From Nitrosophilus labii (lineage in GTDB: Bacteria; Campylobacterota; Campylobacteria; Campylobacterales; Nitratiruptoraceae): 64,000 bases of DNA. Positions 2,747 to 14,108 of the stretch are shown here, in pieces; the stretch's first letter is position 1, and every line of letters begins with the position of its first letter. The stretch spans positions 1 through 64,000 of the forward strand of contig NZ_AP022826.1 of the NCBI RefSeq assembly GCF_014466985.1, read 5' to 3'. The notes beneath the pieces were generated by a model. The model made no database searches. It saw only the letters and a list, made by a program, of their open reading frames with translations, and was not told where the DNA came from. Made by a program: the position numbers and the translations under genes.

Positions 2747-5064
<2,318 letters not shown>

Positions 5065-5065
<1 letters not shown>

Positions 5066-6525
5066 TGCTCTATTCTCAAGAGATTGAAAGGGATGCGAGA
5101 TTTAAGCTTGCACTTAGGATAGGTATCCCTATCCTCGTTTTGGTTTCAGTTATAATATTTGTAATATTTAAAGACGGAAGATTTAATCTTTTTAACCTCT
5201 CTTTACTATTATTGACAATTTTTTCTTCGATATATTTTATTTTTTTTATGATTTATGAGGGACTTTCTCAAAAAATCACAGATCCAATTTCCAAAGCTTT
5301 TAATAGAGAGACTATACTAAAATATTTACAAAAAGATCTATCCACAAAAGATCCGTATAGCATAATCTTGATATCTATAGATAATTTAACCGATATAAAC
5401 GAAAGATATGGTATAGAAAAGGGTGATAAGGTTTTAGAAAAATTTGCCGAAATAATTGACAACTATTTTAAAAAGAGATATGGCAAAGTTCCTATAGGAC
5501 ACTATAAAGGCGGAGAATTTCTAATAGGAGTACAAAATGTCCAAGAAAGTATAAAATTTTTTTTAGACGAATTTATAAAAAGATACGATAGAACAAAAAT
5601 AGATGATATAGATATAAAGATTTTTGCAACCTTGACGGATAAAAACTATAGTAAAGATATAAAAAAAGTAGTAGAGTATCTATATCAGTTATATACGGAT
5701 TATCAGTATATACCAAAATCAAAAAGAGTTTTAATAGCACAAAAGAAAAATATAGAAGCCAATAAATTTGAAAAATTTATAATAGATACAGTTGAAAATA
5801 AAAGTCTCTCTATAAGATTTCAACCATCTTTTAATCTGAAAACTTTGAGATTTGATCTTATTGAGATAATTGTAAAACTTATCGACAAAGATGGTTCTAT
5901 CATACATCCTAGCCAATTTATCCCCGTTATTAATAGACTTGGATTTGAAAAGAGATTTGATCAGATTTTAATAGAGAAAGTATTAAAGACTATAGAAGAA
6001 GATAAATTGCCTAAAAATATATATTATAGTTTTAATTTATCCCCTTTTTCTATTAGAGATAAAAAATTTACTGAAGATATAAAAAAGATTTTCAGTAAAT
6101 TTGATGTTCCAAAAAACTCTATAGTAATAGAACTTTTTGAAAATAGACTCTATAAAGATATAGATTATTACAAGCATGTTTTAGATATATATAAAAAGAT
6201 GGGATTTAAAATATCTTTTGATAATTTTGGTTCACTAAATGCTTCATTTGAATATATAAAAGAGATAGAAGTTGATTTTATACACTTTGACAAATATTAT
6301 ACGAAAATGATAAAAGATAAGATATATCATAATCTTTTAAAAAGTTGGGTGAATTTTTTTGAAGAGATAGGTACTAAAACGGTTATTAAATTTATAGATG
6401 ATAAGAATATGATAGAACTTTTTAAAAATATAGGTGTTGATTATATTCAAGGATATGCTGTTGCAAATCCTCTTTCATCAGAAGAACTAAAAAGATTTTT
6501 GGAGGATAAGTATGAAATACGGTGA
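5065..6525 (+). CDS. Membrane protein with degenerate GGDEF and EAL domains
   Basis: Two transmembrane segments (about residues 17-36 and 43-64) precede a GGDEF-like and an EAL-like domain in 486 residues. Both look catalytically dead. The GGDEF signature reads KGGEF at 148-152. The EAL position reads E267-I-I, DDFG reads DNFG (386-389), and the VAEGVE stretch has become IKFIDDK. Such proteins can act as c-di-GMP or protein sensors rather than enzymes; that is inference here. I chose the ATG at 5065 over a TTG one codon earlier because it overlaps the gyrB stop. queF begins 14 bp before its end, so gyrB, this gene and queF look like one unit. Confidence 0.85.
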
Positions 6526-6901
6526 AAAAGAGATTAAAGAGTTTGAACCTAAAAAAGATCTTGAAATTTGGCCTAATAAACATAAAAAAAATTACAAAAT
6601 AAGCATAACATTACCCGAATTTACTTGTCTTTGTCCAAGAAGCGGCTATCCAGACTTTGCAACTATTTATCTAGAGTATATTCCTGATGAGTGGGTAGTG
6701 GAGTTAAAAGCAATAAAACTATATATCAACTCTTTTAGAGATAGATACATCTCTCATGAAGATAGCGCAAATGAGATTTTTGATACTCTTTTTGATAAGA
6801 TAAAACCAAAATGGATGAAAATTACAGCTGATTTTAATCCAAGAGGAAACGTTCATACCGTTATAGAGATAGATAGTGATAAAATAGAAAAAATAAAATA
6901 G
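6512..6901 (+). CDS. queF: NADPH-dependent 7-cyano-7-deazaguanine (preQ0) reductase, QueF type I
   Basis: QueF reduces the nitrile of preQ0 to the amine preQ1 in queuosine synthesis for tRNA. The 129-residue protein is the short, single-domain form. The motif FTCLCPRSGYPDFA contains the cysteine that forms the thioimide adduct (C41 by alignment with the LCP motif) and the catalytic aspartate D48. The NADPH-binding motif appears as ELKAIKLYI. A GGAGG ribosome site lies inside the end of the upstream gene. No other queuosine genes are visible nearby. Confidence 0.93.
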   Translation: MKYGEKEIKEFEPKKDLEIWPNKHKKNYKISITLPEFTCLCPRSGYPDFATIYLEYIPDEWVVELKAIKLYINSFRDRYISHEDSANEIFDTLFDKIKPKWMKITADFNPRGNVHTVIEIDSDKIEKIK

Positions 6902-6964
6902 ATTTTAATTTAAAATGATTATAATGTATTAAATATTTTTTGCTTTTTATTTTAAAGGTTTTGA

Positions 6965-9031
6965 ATGATTAAAAATATAGTTGTTTTTATATTTTTAATT
7001 ACGTTTATTTTTGCAGACAGTGATTTAAATATTGAAGAAGATTTTTTAAAAACTTTAAATGAAATTAGTGAGATAGCTACAAAAGAGAAACTAAATATAG
7101 ACAAAACTCCTTCTACTGTTACGGTTATAAGAAGAGATGTTATTTTAAAAAGCGGGGCTAAAAATCTGTTTGAAATATTGGATTTGGTTCCCGGCATAGA
7201 AACTTCAATGAGTTCAAGCGGAAAAAAACAGATTATTGTTAGAGGAAATAAAAGCAAATATAGAGATAAAATAAAACTTCTAATTAACGGTATTGACGTG
7301 ACAAATAATCTTTATAGCAATCAGTTTTATTATTACAATTTTCCCGCTTTTTTAATTAAAAGAATAGAAATAGCAAAAACTCCAGATTCTATACTTTACG
7401 GAAGTAACGCATTTATGGGTGTAATAAACGTAATTACGCTTGATGAAGATGAAAAATCAAGTTTTTTTATAGATACTTCCGATAAAAAGAGATATCAACT
7501 CTCTCTGTTTGAAAAAATTGATTTTGATGATAATCCGCTTTTGTTGGATATGCACTATTACTATTCAAAACCTAAAATTTTATCTGATAAGACTGTAAAA
7601 GTGGATCTTTATACGCATGATTTTTCAATTTTTAGAGATGAACAAGTTGCCGATACTTTAGAAAAAAATTTCGGAATTGGTTTATTATGTAAGAAAGAAA
7701 ATTTAACATTGGATTATAGATTGCAATATTATGAAAAAGGCAGTTTTTTTGGAATTTCAAATATTCCTTCGTTAAAAGATGATAAAAAAGTCAAATTTAC
7801 TCATCAATATCTGGTTTTTAAACATAAAAACATAAAAAACGATAATTTAAAAATTTATATTGAGGGAGGTATAAAAAATTATATATGGAAAGGCGAATAT
7901 AGAACTATGCCTTATGATTTGAACCCTTCTTATGATCCTGAAAAAGATTTGATAGTTGGTGGAAAAATCGACGAGCTTGAATATTTTTTAAAATCTGATT
8001 TGAAATATTTAAATCAAAATCACAATGTAACTCTTGGATTTTTATTAAAGTATGCTAAACCTAGAGATTCATACTATATACAGTATGTAGAATATTTCGG
8101 CGATATAAAAAATCAATATAATTTAGGACCGTATGGAGAACATTTAAGAGGTGATTTAAATGTTTTAAAAGAGGGAATCGATAGAAAAATATTTGCTTTA
8201 TATTTAGAAGATTTATATGAAATCAACAAAAAATTTTCTTTAATTAGCGGTATTAGATTTGATAAATTTAGTGATTTTGGTTCAAATTATTCATATAAAC
8301 TTGGTTCGGTTTATAATTTAGACAAAAAAAACAGTTTTAAAATGATGTATAACCACTCTTTTAGAGCGCCTTCATGGGTAGAGTTGTATTCAAATGCATA
8401 TTTTGAATTTAGAGGAAACGACTCTTTAAAACAAGAAAAAATTGATGTGATAGAGTTTGATTTTATTCACAGATTTTCAGAACGTGATATTTTAAAACTT
8501 AACATATACTATCAAAAAAACATAGACTCAATTCAAAGAGTTTATGATGAAACAAGAGGAAAACAGTATTATGACAATATAGGAAATATAGAAGGAAAAG
8601 GTGTTGAGTTTAGTTATAAGAAAGTTATTAATGAAAACTCAAATTTTTACGGAAGTTTTAGTTATAACCATATAAATACTCCATTAAATCTAGGTTTAAA
8701 TGGAACAAGAGAATATTTAGTAAAAGGTTATTTAGATTATGAAATAACGGATAATTTAAACTCATTTACGCTGATAAAATATGGTAGTGAGATTGAAACA
8801 CCAGATATTATAAAAAATATAGAATCATATACAACGGTAGATCAAATTTTTACATATAAAAAGAAAAATATTACTCTTCAATTGGGCGTAAAAAATGTAT
8901 TTAATCAGAAAAAATATTACTGGATTGAACCAACTGACATTGTTGCAAACAGATATATGTTTGTTCCTTTAAATGCTCGTATTCCAGATGTAGGAAGAGA
9001 GCTTTTTGTCTCATTTTCAAAGAGTTGGTAA
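6965..9031 (+). CDS. TonB-dependent outer-membrane receptor
   Basis: The 688-residue product begins with a signal peptide (MIKNIVVFIFLITFIFA) and a plug domain. The plug contains TPSTVTVIRRDVI, the LDLVPGIET segment and a VRGNKSKYRDKIKLLINGI segment. The long remainder has the alternating aromatic pattern of a 22-strand barrel. It ends on FVSFSKSW, an aromatic outer-membrane end. Substrate cannot be predicted. The next gene overlaps its stop by one base (TAATG) and encodes a YfiR-like protein, followed by a PAS-GGDEF-EAL enzyme. This suggests a sensory or signalling role rather than simple uptake. Confidence 0.88.
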   Translation: MIKNIVVFIFLITFIFADSDLNIEEDFLKTLNEISEIATKEKLNIDKTPSTVTVIRRDVILKSGAKNLFEILDLVPGIETSMSSSGKKQIIVRGNKSKYRDKIKLLINGIDVTNNLYSNQFYYYNFPAFLIKRIEIAKTPDSILYGSNAFMGVINVITLDEDEKSSFFIDTSDKKRYQLSLFEKIDFDDNPLLLDMHYYYSKPKILSDKTVKVDLYTHDFSIFRDEQVADTLEKNFGIGLLCKKENLTLDYRLQYYEKGSFFGISNIPSLKDDKKVKFTHQYLVFKHKNIKNDNLKIYIEGGIKNYIWKGEYRTMPYDLNPSYDPEKDLIVGGKIDELEYFLKSDLKYLNQNHNVTLGFLLKYAKPRDSYYIQYVEYFGDIKNQYNLGPYGEHLRGDLNVLKEGIDRKIFALYLEDLYEINKKFSLISGIRFDKFSDFGSNYSYKLGSVYNLDKKNSFKMMYNHSFRAPSWVELYSNAYFEFRGNDSLKQEKIDVIEFDFIHRFSERDILKLNIYYQKNIDSIQRVYDETRGKQYYDNIGNIEGKGVEFSYKKVINENSNFYGSFSYNHINTPLNLGLNGTREYLVKGYLDYEITDNLNSFTLIKYGSEIETPDIIKNIESYTTVDQIFTYKKKNITLQLGVKNVFNQKKYYWIEPTDIVANRYMFVPLNARIPDVGRELFVSFSKSW

Positions 9032-9561
9032 TGAAAAAAATAGTTGTTTTTTTAATACCCATTTTGTTGTTAGCTAACAGTTTAGATAAAAAGATTGTGG
9101 AGCTTGAATCTAAAATATACCCAAAAATTATTTTTTTAGATTATAAAATAGAAAAAAAACTAGTCGATAATGAAGTACTAATTCATATAATATACGATAC
9201 AAAATATCATAAAACCATAGCAGAGTTTTTTAAAGATATATTGGATAATAAAATAATATACAATAAAAAGTTTAATGTTAAACTTGTTAGTTATCAAGAG
9301 TCGCTTAAAGAAGTACCAACAGCCTATATAGTCGTCTTGAAAAAGGATAACGTAGAAAATATCGAACCTAAATTTCGCAAAAACGGAAGATTAATTTTTA
9401 GTTTTAAAGATGATAATATAAAATACTCTCTGGTATCTCTATTTTTTGGAGCTAAAGTACTTCCAATAGTAAATCTAAAATTGTTAAAAGAATATGGAAT
9501 AGAACTAAAACCTATAATATTTAAAGTAGCAGAAATTTACAATGAGAATGATAAACTTTAA
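9031..9561 (+). CDS. Exported YfiR-like (DUF4154-type) protein
   Basis: A signal peptide (MKKIVVFLIPILLLANS) is followed by about 155 residues in the pattern of YfiR/DUF4154 proteins: KIIFLDYKI near the start, a central YIVVL strand, and the end motif INLKLLKEYGIELKP. In Pseudomonas, YfiR is a periplasmic repressor of the diguanylate cyclase YfiN. The start at the ATG 9031 is preferred over an upstream TTG because it overlaps the receptor stop codon. The next gene, a membrane GGDEF-EAL enzyme, overlaps the end of this gene by 20 bp, which supports a partner role. Family assignment is by pattern only. Confidence 0.65.
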   Translation: MKKIVVFLIPILLLANSLDKKIVELESKIYPKIIFLDYKIEKKLVDNEVLIHIIYDTKYHKTIAEFFKDILDNKIIYNKKFNVKLVSYQESLKEVPTAYIVVLKKDNVENIEPKFRKNGRLIFSFKDDNIKYSLVSLFFGAKVLPIVNLKLLKEYGIELKPIIFKVAEIYNENDKL

Positions 9562-11908
9562 TTCACTTATTATAAAAATATTAATAGTAATATTTTTAAT
9601 AATCTCTATCTTTTTTCTATACAATCTTTTTAACCTGAAATTAGCAAAAGAGTCTTTGGAAAATATGGAAAATAGCAGAGTAGAATCTATTATAGAAAAT
9701 GAGATTTCCATATTGAAAGACTCAATATATTTTGATTTTGAGGAGCCTATAAAAGATAGTTTAAATAGAATATTTCTTCACTTAAATAATTTAAAAGGAA
9801 TATATTTAAAAAACTATATTACTAAAAAAGAGTATAAATTATTTAGAGATTCTAAAAACCCTTTTATCTCAAAAAATAGTAATCTAATATATAAAAAATT
9901 TAAAATTTATAATGATAAAGAAGAGATCGCAGAGATTGAAGTTGCTTATGAAAATCTTTATTCAAAAGAGTTTTTTATAAAATATAAAAATGCTCTATTT
10001 TTTACTTTAATTATCTTTTTAACTATTTTATTATTTTTATTTATATATTTATATAGAAAAATCAAGGCAATATATATTTTGGCCAATGATTTAAAAAATA
10101 TAGACCCTAACAATCCAAAGATTCTTAAAACTATGGATAGATATTTTGAAATAGTTCTAATTGTAAACTCTATAAATAGCTTTTTGCTTAAGTTAAAAGA
10201 TAGCAGTGAAATTTCAAAAAGACTATATAGAAAGCTTATTGAAAAACAGAATCACTTAGAAGATGCTCAAAGATTAGCTCATATAGGAAGTTGGGAATAT
10301 ATTCCAGAAAAAAATAGATTCTTTGTAAGTAAAGAGTTTTTTAGATTGATAGGATTTAAAAAAGATGAAAAAATCAATTGGCAGATTTTTTTAAAAAAAA
10401 TCCCAAGCGATGACAGAAAGATTTTTGAAGATAAAATAAAAATAGCTTTACAGAACGGTTCAAAATTTGATTTTATTCATAAAATAATGAATAAATATGG
10501 AAAAATAAAATATTTAAAAACGGAGGCAAAAGTTAAAAAACATAAAAATAACCCTACTAAAATTCTTGGTATTAGTATGGATATAACAGAAGAGATGGAA
10601 GCTAAAAAGAAAGTCGAATTTTTAGCTTATCATGATACGCTTACTCTTTTACTAAATAGAACCGCTTTTTTGGAAAGAATGGATTTTTTTATAAAACTGT
10701 CTAAAAGAAAAAATCTAAAGTTTGCAATTTTGTATATAGACCTAGATAATTTTAAATATATAAACGATACTTTTGGACATACGGTAGGAGATGAGCTTTT
10801 AGTTATAGTATCAAAAATATTAAAAAATATTCTAAGAGAATCTGATGTTATAGCAAGAGTAGGAGGAGATGAATTTATTATACTTTTACCTTTTATCAAT
10901 AATAAAGATGATATAGAAAAGATATCAAAAAAGATTATTAATAGTATTTCAAAAGAGTACAACATTAAAAACTACGTTTTTAATGTAACTTGTAGTATAG
11001 GAATATCTACATTTCCAGATGATAGTTTAGATGCCGAAGAGTTGATCAAATATGCAGATACTGTGATGTACGAATCCAAAAAAAATGGAAAAAACAGATA
11101 TAACTTTTTTGATGTTTCTATTAAAAAAAGTATGGAAAACTATCATGAGATTACAAAAGATTTAAAAGAAGCACTGAAAAAAGATAATGAAATCAGACTC
11201 TATTTTCAACCAAAAATCTCATTAACATATAGAGAGATTGTTAGTGCAGAAGTGTTATCTAGATGGATGCATCCTATTAAAGGATTAATGTATCCAAATG
11301 AATATATCCATATTGCAGAAAATAGTAATTTAATTATTGAATATGACAATTACATAATCGAAAAAAGTTTTGCACAGATAAAAGAGTGGGAAAATTCTGA
11401 GTTTAGCCTTTTATCTTTATCTGTAAATATTTCGGCAAGACAGTTTAAAAGTAAAGAGTTTTTATCAAAAATAGAAGAACTGTTAAAAGTTTATAAAATA
11501 GATCCGAAAAAAATAGAGTTTGAAATAACTGAAACTTTAGCAATGGACAATATCGAAAACAGTATTGAGATACTTGAAAAAATCAAGAAATTGGGATTTA
11601 AAATATCAATAGATGATTTTGGTTCAGGATATTCATCTTTAAACTATTTAAAGAGATTGCCTTATGATACCATTAAAATAGATAGAGAATTTATAAAAGA
11701 TTTACATATAGACAATGATGATATCATCATAACAAAATTGATTGTACAACTAGCAAAAACACTAAATAAAAAAGCAGTTGCAGAAGGTGTGGAAATAGAT
11801 GAACATATAAAGATTTTAAAGTCTATAGGCTGCGATTTTGTACAAGGATACTATTTTGCTAAACCTATGGATAAAGAAGATTTTTTAGACTATGTAAAAA
11901 ATTTTTAA
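9542..11908 (+). CDS. Membrane sensor with PAS, GGDEF and EAL domains (intact c-di-GMP enzyme)
   Basis: The 788-residue protein has a transmembrane helix near residues 9-28, a periplasmic segment of about 120 residues, a second helix near 152-172, a PAS domain (AHIGSWEY onward, about 245-350), a GGDEF domain with intact GGDEF at 441-445, and an EAL domain. The EAL motif reads EVL (570-572), a common active variant, and DDFGSGYSS and VAEGVE are conserved. It could therefore both make and degrade c-di-GMP. The overlap with the YfiR-like gene suggests the periplasmic segment is regulated by it. A hydrophobic start and the 20-bp overlap support the ATG at 9542. Confidence 0.9.
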   Translation: MRMINFNSLIIKILIVIFLIISIFFLYNLFNLKLAKESLENMENSRVESIIENEISILKDSIYFDFEEPIKDSLNRIFLHLNNLKGIYLKNYITKKEYKLFRDSKNPFISKNSNLIYKKFKIYNDKEEIAEIEVAYENLYSKEFFIKYKNALFFTLIIFLTILLFLFIYLYRKIKAIYILANDLKNIDPNNPKILKTMDRYFEIVLIVNSINSFLLKLKDSSEISKRLYRKLIEKQNHLEDAQRLAHIGSWEYIPEKNRFFVSKEFFRLIGFKKDEKINWQIFLKKIPSDDRKIFEDKIKIALQNGSKFDFIHKIMNKYGKIKYLKTEAKVKKHKNNPTKILGISMDITEEMEAKKKVEFLAYHDTLTLLLNRTAFLERMDFFIKLSKRKNLKFAILYIDLDNFKYINDTFGHTVGDELLVIVSKILKNILRESDVIARVGGDEFIILLPFINNKDDIEKISKKIINSISKEYNIKNYVFNVTCSIGISTFPDDSLDAEELIKYADTVMYESKKNGKNRYNFFDVSIKKSMENYHEITKDLKEALKKDNEIRLYFQPKISLTYREIVSAEVLSRWMHPIKGLMYPNEYIHIAENSNLIIEYDNYIIEKSFAQIKEWENSEFSLLSLSVNISARQFKSKEFLSKIEELLKVYKIDPKKIEFEITETLAMDNIENSIEILEKIKKLGFKISIDDFGSGYSSLNYLKRLPYDTIKIDREFIKDLHIDNDDIIITKLIVQLAKTLNKKAVAEGVEIDEHIKILKSIGCDFVQGYYFAKPMDKEDFLDYVKNF

Positions 11909-11910
11909 AG

Positions 11911-12006
11911 ACCCCTCCCCAGATACCCGCGGCACACAGTTCCAAGAGGTGCTCTGCTGCGTTCCCGCCCTGAAGCTTTGCCTCTTGAAACTGTTGCACG
12001 GGTCTG
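11911..12006 (-). ncRNA. ffs: Signal recognition particle RNA, small bacterial type
   Basis: Read on the minus strand, the segment contains the SRP core CAGGGCGGGAACGCAGCAG, the asymmetric loop bound by Ffh. It is enclosed by a long stem in which CAGTTTCAAGAGG pairs with CCTCTTGGAACTG and ACCCG pairs with CGGGT. The RNA brings ribosomes making membrane proteins to FtsY. The exact ends are uncertain by several bases. It lies about 45 bp downstream of tRNA-Ser on the same strand and could be co-transcribed with it. A T-rich tract follows the 3' end. Confidence 0.85.
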
Positions 12007-12050
12007 AAGAGGAGCAGTGAAAACTCAAAAAGCTCTCAATGCTCCTCTCC

Positions 12051-13022: not shown

Positions 13023-14108
13023 CTAAAATATTTTAAATTGTAAATAGTTTGTATAAGTCCAATACATATGGCACTCATTATGATTTTCAAGAAGGTATTT
13101 TACCGGAGATTTAAAATTAAGTGAATAGTGTGGTATTTTGGTATTGTAATCGATGAGCCAATTAGCAAGATGTTTATTAAATTCTTCCAAATCTGTAAAG
13201 AGAAGGTCTTCATAGTAATCAACAAACTGTTCTTGAATAGTTCTATTAAATCGTTCATTATGGGCATTCATTTTAGGGCTTTTAGGATATGTCCAATAGT
13301 GAATAAAGTTTTTTTGTTGGAGTAAAGCATCAAACTCTTTTTTAAATTCACTACCATTATCTGAAAGAATAGCAAGAGAGTATTTTTGCTTGTTTTTTAT
13401 AGAGGTAATGCCATCAATGAGAGCTTCAAGTGCGAAGGCTGTATGTTTTGCTCTTTTGGAGGGAATTGCTACAGCAAAGGCTACTCTACTTACTGGGTCA
13501 ATCATTGTAAGGATATATCGTCTAATACCATTTGAGACTCTTTGAATTGTATCAACCGCCCATAATTGAAAGGGTTGTGTTTTTAAATTTTTTGGCTTTC
13601 TGTTTTTATTTGAAGTTCTCTTTTTAGGCTTTACTCTTCCTTTGGCATCTATCCTATAAGGAAAGTGTCTCATTTTGTCTGGAGCTTTTGCGATAATCCT
13701 GCCTATTGTTGACTCTGATGGAGTTTTAAGTCCTTTTGCTTCACAAAAGGGTTTAAGTAGATGATAGAGTTTTGCTTTACCAATATTTGGATACTCTTGT
13801 CTTAATTTTCGTATTTGTCTGACTATTTCCAAAGAGACTTTAGATTCTCTTACTCTTTTTGGTTTCCGTGATTTTGGATTAAGAGCCGTAATATCCTTAT
13901 TTGCCTCTTTATATGCTTTTTTCCATCTAAAAAGAGTCCTTCTGCTAACTCCAAAGGCTTCGGTTGTAGCCTCTAATCCGTATTTCTCCCAAAACTCTAA
14001 TATCTTTTTTCTTTTTTTCACCTCTTCGCTTATCATAAGCGAATTGTAGTATATCCTTTCTAATCTTTTATACCCTTTGACCCCTAGCAACGTGTATCTG
14101 ATTTGCAC
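13023..14108 (-). CDS. IS481-type DDE transposase
   Basis: The 361-residue enzyme has an N-terminal helix-turn-helix (about residues 30-75, FGVSRRTLFRWKKAY) and an rve-type DDE core. The core shows the first Asp in LWAVDTIQ, the second in LSDNGSEF and the Glu in AHNERFNRT. It catalyses movement of its own element. The frame opens with GTG at 14108; an internal ATG at MISEEVKK is an alternative start. The frame has no stop inside the element: it runs through the left terminal repeat and ends eight codons later in flanking DNA, so the last residues come from the target site. No disabling lesion is visible. Confidence 0.9.
   Translation of the reverse strand: MQIRYTLLGVKGYKRLERIYYNSLMISEEVKKRKKILEFWEKYGLEATTEAFGVSRRTLFRWKKAYKEANKDITALNPKSRKPKRVRESKVSLEIVRQIRKLRQEYPNIGKAKLYHLLKPFCEAKGLKTPSESTIGRIIAKAPDKMRHFPYRIDAKGRVKPKKRTSNKNRKPKNLKTQPFQLWAVDTIQRVSNGIRRYILTMIDPVSRVAFAVAIPSKRAKHTAFALEALIDGITSIKNKQKYSLAILSDNGSEFKKEFDALLQQKNFIHYWTYPKSPKMNAHNERFNRTIQEQFVDYYEDLLFTDLEEFNKHLANWLIDYNTKIPHYSLNFKSPVKYLLENHNECHMYWTYTNYLQFKIF

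Follow-up and report, generated by a model that had tools for sequence, protein, structure and literature searches.

A TonB-dependent receptor, a YfiR-like protein and a PAS-GGDEF-EAL enzyme in one operon of Nitrosophilus labii: a probable trans-envelope switch

The contig NZ_AP022826.1 of Nitrosophilus labii (assembly GCF_014466985.1) carries within its first 64,000 nucleotides, the stretch analysed here and called the window in the following, an operon of three genes (6965-11908, forward strand) coding for a TonB-dependent receptor (TBDR), an exported protein similar to YfiR, and a membrane enzyme with GGDEF and EAL domains. Its genes and domains are the following (aa, amino acids; values after Pfam families are E-values):

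6965..9031, plus strand: receptor gene, TBDR of 688 aa by Pfam
7100..7423, plus strand: plug domain of the receptor, Pfam PF07715 (Plug), residues 46-153, 7.1e-20
7709..8899, plus strand: beta-barrel of the receptor, Pfam PF00593 (TonB_dep_Rec_b-barrel), residues 249-645, 2.2e-28
9031..9561 (from the ATG), plus strand: YfiR-like gene, exported periplasmic protein of 176 aa without cysteine
9542..11908, plus strand: enzyme gene, membrane protein of 788 aa with sensor region, HAMP-like region, PAS, GGDEF and EAL
9635..9997, plus strand: predicted periplasmic PAS/Cache-like sensor region of the enzyme, about residues 30-150 in the numbering that starts at the ATG at 9548, from an AlphaFold2 model and fold comparison
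10319..10573, plus strand: cytoplasmic PAS_3 domain, Pfam residues 260-344 of 788, 5.2e-7
10625..11098, plus strand: GGDEF domain, Pfam residues 362-519, 7.4e-48, motif RESDVIARVGGDEF
11159..11866, plus strand: EAL domain, Pfam residues 540-775, 9.8e-70

A preliminary description of this DNA had reported that the three genes overlap by one and twenty bases, which the coordinates of the open reading frames (ORFs) bear out: the receptor and YfiR-like genes share 1 base, and the YfiR-like and enzyme genes share 20, or 14 if the second ATG of the enzyme ORF at 9548 is used, which yields a protein of 786 aa. The YfiR-like ORF possesses an alternative TTG start 6 nt upstream of the ATG at 9031. The products named there (receptor, exported YfiR-like protein and membrane PAS-GGDEF-EAL enzyme) likewise agree with the Pfam matches and with the predicted YfiR fold of the middle protein.

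Concerning the receptor, both Pfam families lie well within their limits (Plug 72 bits, cut-off 23.9; barrel 100.8 bits, cut-off 27). The plug match begins at residue 46, and the list of Pfam families with E up to 1 is without an STN signalling domain. Among solved structures, the best sequence matches are to the colicin I receptor, to BtuB and to PhuR, mostly over the plug, and neither the family nor the PDB matches point to a ligand. The genome of N. labii contains six plug matches at E up to 1e-5, two of which adjoin its two YfiR-like genes. Another receptor family (loci L235, L239, L244 and L247) exhibits, by eye, an ESELSKITK-like stretch before the plug, which resembles the ISEIATK stretch of the YfiR-linked receptors and stands where an obvious TonB box would.

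In the enzyme, the GGDEF motif is intact, with an RxxD site five residues before it (RESDVIARVGGDEF), and EAL motifs of the catalytic type are present (EVL, NIS, EITE, DDFG, IKID, AEGVE, QGY). Residues 361-780 align with solved GGDEF-EAL proteins. A periplasmic domain had been expected at about residues 30-150, and the AlphaFold2 model of residues 1-258 (two long helices enclosing a small alpha/beta domain; mean pLDDT 84.9, pTM 0.54) does place the small domain there; the two flanking helices would be membrane helices, the position of the domain being deduced from them. Most of the best-ranked solved matches to this model are Cache/PAS-like sensors, none of them specific. The profile PERI_GB, built from the sensors of GGDEF-EAL enzymes without PAS in other operons, recognises the window enzyme at 6e-10 and 20 kinases at 3e-5 to 3e-29; GGDEF-EAL, GGDEF and kinase proteins have the N-terminal sensor region in common.

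The middle protein matches PF13689 (YfiR/HmsC-like) over residues 62-167 with E 0.01 and 16.4 bits, below the gathering cut-off of 24.9; nine of the 17 members of the YfiR alignment, the window protein among them, match this family at E up to 1 (best 6e-8). An AlphaFold2 model, computed from an alignment of the window protein with seven relatives from named contigs, reached pLDDT 87.0 and pTM 0.83. When it was compared with solved structures by VIA-align, the first 8 of 50 rows had Z 14.8-15.8, 142-144 aligned residues, a root-mean-square deviation of 2.7-3.1 and 10-11% identity. Six of these eight are named YfiR (Z 15.2-15.6), two of the six being YfiB-YfiR complexes, and the other two, 4zhu_B (repressor protein) and 4zhy_A (signalling complex), were taken for YfiR by their residue numbers; ligand-binding proteins (3lft_A, 3lkv) follow at Z 13.9 and below. 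Judged from the model, the middle protein is of the YfiR fold. When the YfiR alignment was compared as a profile with E. coli YfiR, 42 columns at the C-terminal end matched in register, if weakly (E 0.002, probability 14), and the PDB profile match to 4yn9 is likewise weak and in register (E 2.4), with an unrelated virus-like particle chain scoring better (E 0.81). Searches with the single window protein recovered no relative among genome contigs and viral contigs and none among plasmids; with E. coli YfiR as query, 88 plasmid records matched.

The neighbourhood of YfiR-like genes was surveyed in 397 genomes of the phylum of the window (Campylobacterota), using the YfiR alignment (A1) at E up to 1e-3. 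Matches were obtained in 52 genomes; three (G165, G179, G192) contain weak partial matches inside frames of 917-1035 aa, which were taken for chance and discounted, leaving 49. A single-sequence search, with matches in 24 of 60 genomes, additionally pointed to a 311-aa protein of G022 that the profile did not recover, and its locus (L053) was dropped. With flanks of up to about 6 kb fetched around the matches, 89 loci including the window were obtained, 87 of which show a YfiR ORF; outside these 87 stand L137 and L138, where YfiR-like matches were lost in ORF calling, and three unfetched weak or partial places (G415:C36, G025:C85, G025:C126).

A TBDR is situated within 5 kb of the YfiR-like gene in 80 of the 87 loci and within 300 nt in 72; for the sensor region the figures are 82 and 72, and both partners lie within 5 kb in 75 loci. 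These forward counts are partly circular, since genes adjoining YfiR were the source of the profiles for sensor, receptor and synthase, whereas the plug and reverse searches are less so. By our estimate, a random place in the genome of N. labii lies within 300 nt of a receptor in about 1% of cases. In the reverse direction, 34 of 48 sensor matches in 60 relatives lie within 4.5 kb of a YfiR-like match, both sensors of N. labii among them, and 34 of 42 YfiR matches lie near a sensor match. Concerning the 11 loci on named contigs, seven have the YfiR-like gene adjoining the receptor (Hydrogenimonas, four Nautiliaceae, one Campylobacterales and Ca. Sulfurimonas ponti), three are cut off before that place, and one, from Bacteroidales, lacks it.

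The output domains behind the sensor vary among the 87 loci: 48 have GGDEF-EAL, 19 a histidine kinase and 11 GGDEF, 4 are cut or unclear, and in 5 no sensor was found. Three examples were checked with Pfam, giving HATPase_c in L035 and L027 and Response_reg in L038. Gene orders vary as well, comprising TBDR-YfiR-sensor, histidine kinase-TBDR-YfiR, TBDR-histidine kinase-YfiR, GGDEF-EAL-synthase-TBDR-YfiR, and a TBDR divergent from YfiR-GGDEF. On a tree of 83 YfiR sequences (without L152-L155, four more loci whose YfiR matches are weak), 79 of them labelled by output, the three output classes need at least 6 changes, compared with 27.0 in shuffles; the window sequence groups with other PAS-GGDEF-EAL operons at modest support. 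A shared sensor region with at least 6 changes of output would agree with a YfiR that acts on this region rather than on the output domains.

A second phylum exhibits the same association. In the phylum of a Bacteroidales genome, Bacteroidota, PF13689 is present in 16 of 118 genomes; 25 places were listed and 20 loci fetched, with similar-sized neighbours in L183 and L184 standing outside the Pfam scan. The YfiR gene adjoins a TBDR in 9 of these 20 loci as a raw count; eight were found by profile (L185, L187, L193, L197-L201) and the ninth, L182, by Pfam. Among seven neighbouring sensors scanned, CHASE8 lies above the cut-off in L185, L182 and L187 and just below it in L193, L197 and L199, and is not listed in L201. 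The six Bacteroidota sensors scanned in full carry kinase domains, L187 having been scanned over its first 500 residues. Judged from these domain matches, the loci link the receptor and YfiR with a true YfiN-type sensor outside the phylum of the window. In a further Bacteroidales locus (L188, 5547-8044), the PF13689 gene precedes that of a protein of 637 aa, which at its C-terminus is similar to the OmpA-like part of E. coli YfiB (8e-10) and is perhaps another outer-membrane partner.

Co-occurrence of the three families beyond the lineage, on which the preliminary description had made its proposal depend, thus extends over many genomes within the phylum and to a second phylum. TBDR and GGDEF-EAL genes are both common, and PF13689 falls below its cut-off for the window protein; both points would agree with an uptake operon that adjoins an unrelated c-di-GMP (cyclic dimeric GMP) enzyme by chance or as a local peculiarity. 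Against the counts in the 87 loci, the reverse search and the Bacteroidota loci, this explanation is very improbable, and as a general statement local chance adjacency is contradicted by the neighbourhood counts.

In Pseudomonas aeruginosa, according to the excerpts of PMC3375315 and PMC2837407 used here, YfiR represses YfiN via the periplasmic PAS domain of the latter, and the outer-membrane protein YfiB sequesters YfiR. We consider it quite probable that the operon of N. labii is a trans-envelope switch of the YfiR/YfiN type in which the TBDR takes the outer-membrane place of YfiB. The trio recurs with exchangeable outputs in two phyla and therefore probably carries outside signals across both membranes. 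The receptor would bind or import a ligand, and this event would alter the share of YfiR-like protein available for binding to the periplasmic sensor region of the enzyme; the change would pass through the membrane helices and the HAMP-like region and shift the balance of GGDEF and EAL activity, and with it c-di-GMP. By analogy with YfiR-YfiN, the YfiR-like protein would contact the sensor region; that the receptor controls YfiR, and the direction of the response, we infer. The interpretation given in the preliminary description is partly supported: c-di-GMP as the output agrees with the intact motifs of the window enzyme, whereas a histidine kinase stands in its place in 19 of the 87 loci.

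Several observations weigh against the switch. The YfiR-like gene is patchily spread, with 345 of the 397 genomes lacking a match, and a PF13689 search of the genome of N. labii gave nothing at E up to 1e-3. Foldseek shows no YfiR among the 50 rows listed, with Rhodothermus substrate-binding proteins on top, such that the fold call rests on VIA-align, the second aligner. Concerning the sensor, the sensor model was not found within 5 kb in 5 of the 87 loci, and 14 of the 48 sensor matches of the reverse search lie away from YfiR, five of them partial (HAMP end). The sensors of L033, L040, L056-L059 and L063, which belong to the subgroup of the window, match only the sensor profile built from that subgroup. 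Pfam gave no match to any family, CHASE8 included, in the window between 9548 and 10300, and when the sensor alignment was compared with E. coli DgcN by profile, only a membrane helix aligned. The strongly supported branches of the YfiR tree do not by themselves force as many as 6 output changes. Finally, no TBDR lies within 5 kb in seven loci (L036, L041, L047, L051, L127, L128, L146), in one of which, L051, the YfiR gene sits at a contig end.

CHASE8 was likewise not listed in six relatives at E up to 5, where the control, E. coli DgcN, was found at 115.7 bits; by Pfam, and by the comparison with DgcN that failed too, the sensor region is not placed in CHASE8. By its position and general fold it may work like the sensor of YfiN.

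The seven loci with YfiR and sensor and no nearby TBDR agree with a core without receptor control, in which the YfiR-like protein senses the periplasm and the receptor is a co-transcribed uptake gene needed under the same conditions; YfiN-YfiR pairs without YfiB are also described in the excerpt of PMC3375315. However, the association with TBDRs spans three outputs, several gene orders and two phyla, which shared expression alone explains poorly, and one way for YfiR to sense the periplasm by itself, redox sensing through four cysteines, is excluded. Such cysteines are strictly conserved in the YfiR of complete YfiBNR systems, as given in the same excerpt, whereas the window protein has none, and among 83 sequences after residue 25, 48 have none, 13 have one, 21 have two, one has three and not one has four. 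We regard a core without receptor control as improbable, if clearly less so than chance adjacency.

Within the proposed switch, two ways of action are about equally likely: the receptor may dock YfiR as YfiB does, or it may import a small ligand that the YfiR-like protein binds. The second, in which the receptor never touches YfiR, is a sub-case of the switch, so that its odds overlap with those of the whole, and we hold it possible with less than even chances. In its favour, ligand-binding proteins follow YfiR in the fold comparison (3lft_A and 3lkv, Z 13.9), and in P. aeruginosa YfiR the pocket for Phe57 of YfiB also binds L-Trp or vitamin B6 weakly (excerpt of PMC4887326). At five pocket positions mapped from P. 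aeruginosa YfiR, the window protein has L, L, L, P and F. Across the 83 sequences, the equivalents of I169, V176 and L181 are hydrophobic in 98-100%; those of L166 (46%) and P178 (34%) are so in a minority, which speaks against the import of a ligand for YfiR. As a level for comparison, 28% of all alignment columns reach the benchmark of 90% hydrophobic. The hydrophobic residues are only suggestive of a ligand pocket or one of the YfiB type.

The genome of N. labii possesses a second trio, the sister operon (locus L026, G000:C1:698000-710000; 2880-8028), whose receptor gene is preceded, with 11 bases of overlap, by a GNAT gene of the LuxI superfamily. In L029 (6511-8460), an operon of this kind has its third gene divided between two ORFs, one for the sensor and one for GGDEF-EAL. 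A synthase of this kind lies within 5 kb in 30 of the 87 loci, 28 with GGDEF-EAL and two with cut outputs. Five synthases were scanned: all five pass Acetyltransf_5, three Autoind_synth and one FeeM, and the best NCBIfam match is exosort_acyl, below the cut-off in all five. Six aligned synthases have invariant R, E, D, D, E and R positions, which presumably resemble those of LuxI. In the 60 relatives, a synthase search at E up to 1e-6 gave 19 matches, 15 of them no more than 4.5 kb from YfiR; two more adjoin a plug match on contigs without a YfiR match (G012:C34, G001:C87), and two are situated elsewhere (in G024 and, weak, in G025). The synthase of G024 (C1:515149-515697) occurs in a genome without YfiR or sensor matches. 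In L145, L147, L148, L150 and L151 the genes stand in a variant order, GGDEF-EAL first and then synthase, receptor and YfiR; about 2.8 kb separate the sensor gene from YfiR.

The synthase of the sister operon is a lead towards self-signalling. It is conceivable, though we rather doubt it, that the trio is a general envelope-crossing module with one large self-signalling, quorum-like branch, in which a LuxI-superfamily synthase would produce an acylated small molecule, the TBDR of the adjoining gene would perceive or import it, and YfiR would pass the signal to GGDEF-EAL and so to c-di-GMP; on that equally tentative footing, the operon in the window would belong to a branch without a synthase of its own.

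On the 5' side of the operon, gyrB is followed by a second GGDEF-EAL gene and then by queF, which directly precedes the receptor gene. The second GGDEF-EAL gene (5062-6525), directly after gyrB, codes for a protein of 487 aa with degenerate motifs (KGGEF, DNFG); a motif check revealed no EAL-type, DDFG or AEGVE motif in it, and by its sequence it is probably not an active enzyme. On the other side the following feature is situated, with tRNA genes next:

11913-12010, minus strand: small signal recognition particle (SRP) RNA, 4 bases past the last stop codon of the operon

Between the tRNA cluster and the gene of dihydroxy-acid dehydratase lies a transposase of the insertion sequence type with an integrase core domain (13023-14108). 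A scan for promoters and terminators was uninformative, giving 48 promoter-like sites compared with 37.1 in shuffles and no terminator-like site.

TBDRs are usually read as gates for nutrients, the FecA relay being the textbook exception. If the proposed switch is true, it would constitute a second widespread relay from TBDRs, leading into c-di-GMP and two-component signalling, and many orphan receptors would gain a signalling role. The YfiR-YfiN core would gain an explicit chemical input, and what YfiR systems sense would become testable via the ligand of the receptor; if the synthase branch is true as well, an acylated signal would be sensed at the outer membrane. In full-text searches of the literature, which covered few subscription papers and no preprints, no report of a TBDR as partner of YfiR was found. 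The term TonB has no occurrence in the main text of PMC3375315, whose supplementary Table S4 may list receptors without comment, or in PMC2837407. As far as the excerpted text of PMC3375315 extends, the modular YfiR-YfiN core is already published, and the TBDR partner is the new part.

In the FecA-FecR-FecI system, a TonB-dependent receptor signals across the envelope, and the likeness to the operon of N. labii lies in the use of a TBDR as signal receptor proposed here. Unlike in that system, the receptor in the window is without STN among its Pfam matches, for which reason signalling of the FecA type was rejected; neither FecR nor a sigma factor is among the three genes, and the relay is YfiR-like with an enzyme or a kinase as output.

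LapD signals from inside to outside, and its partner LapG is a protease. The excerpt of PMC3375315 describes it as a GGDEF-EAL protein of the membrane that binds a periplasmic protein through a PAS-like domain on the periplasmic side, and the periplasmic domain of a LapD ortholog (4u64) matches the sensor model of the window enzyme with Z 10.2. The GGDEF and EAL motifs of the window enzyme are intact, by which a degenerate enzyme of the LapD kind is ruled out.

The organization of the operon is closest to that of YfiBNR (TpbB) of P. aeruginosa and yfiR-dgcN-yfiB of E. coli as excerpted from PMC3375315: in each, the gene of a periplasmic protein with YfiR fold adjoins that of a membrane sensor, the membrane protein combines a periplasmic PAS-like region, a HAMP-like region and a c-di-GMP domain, and the gene of an outer-membrane partner is part of the operon. 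This partner is the OmpA/Pal-like lipoprotein YfiB in the known systems, whereas in the window it is a TBDR, with no YfiB among the three genes; furthermore, the output is PAS-GGDEF-EAL, the YfiR-like protein is without cysteines, and the sensor is not recognised as CHASE8. The YfiR-YfiN core is described in the same excerpt as widespread and modular, with GGDEF-EAL, HPT (histidine phosphotransfer) or kinase outputs and mostly without YfiB, and these divergent YfiN-YfiR systems share with the trio of the window a swappable output behind a sensor read by YfiR.

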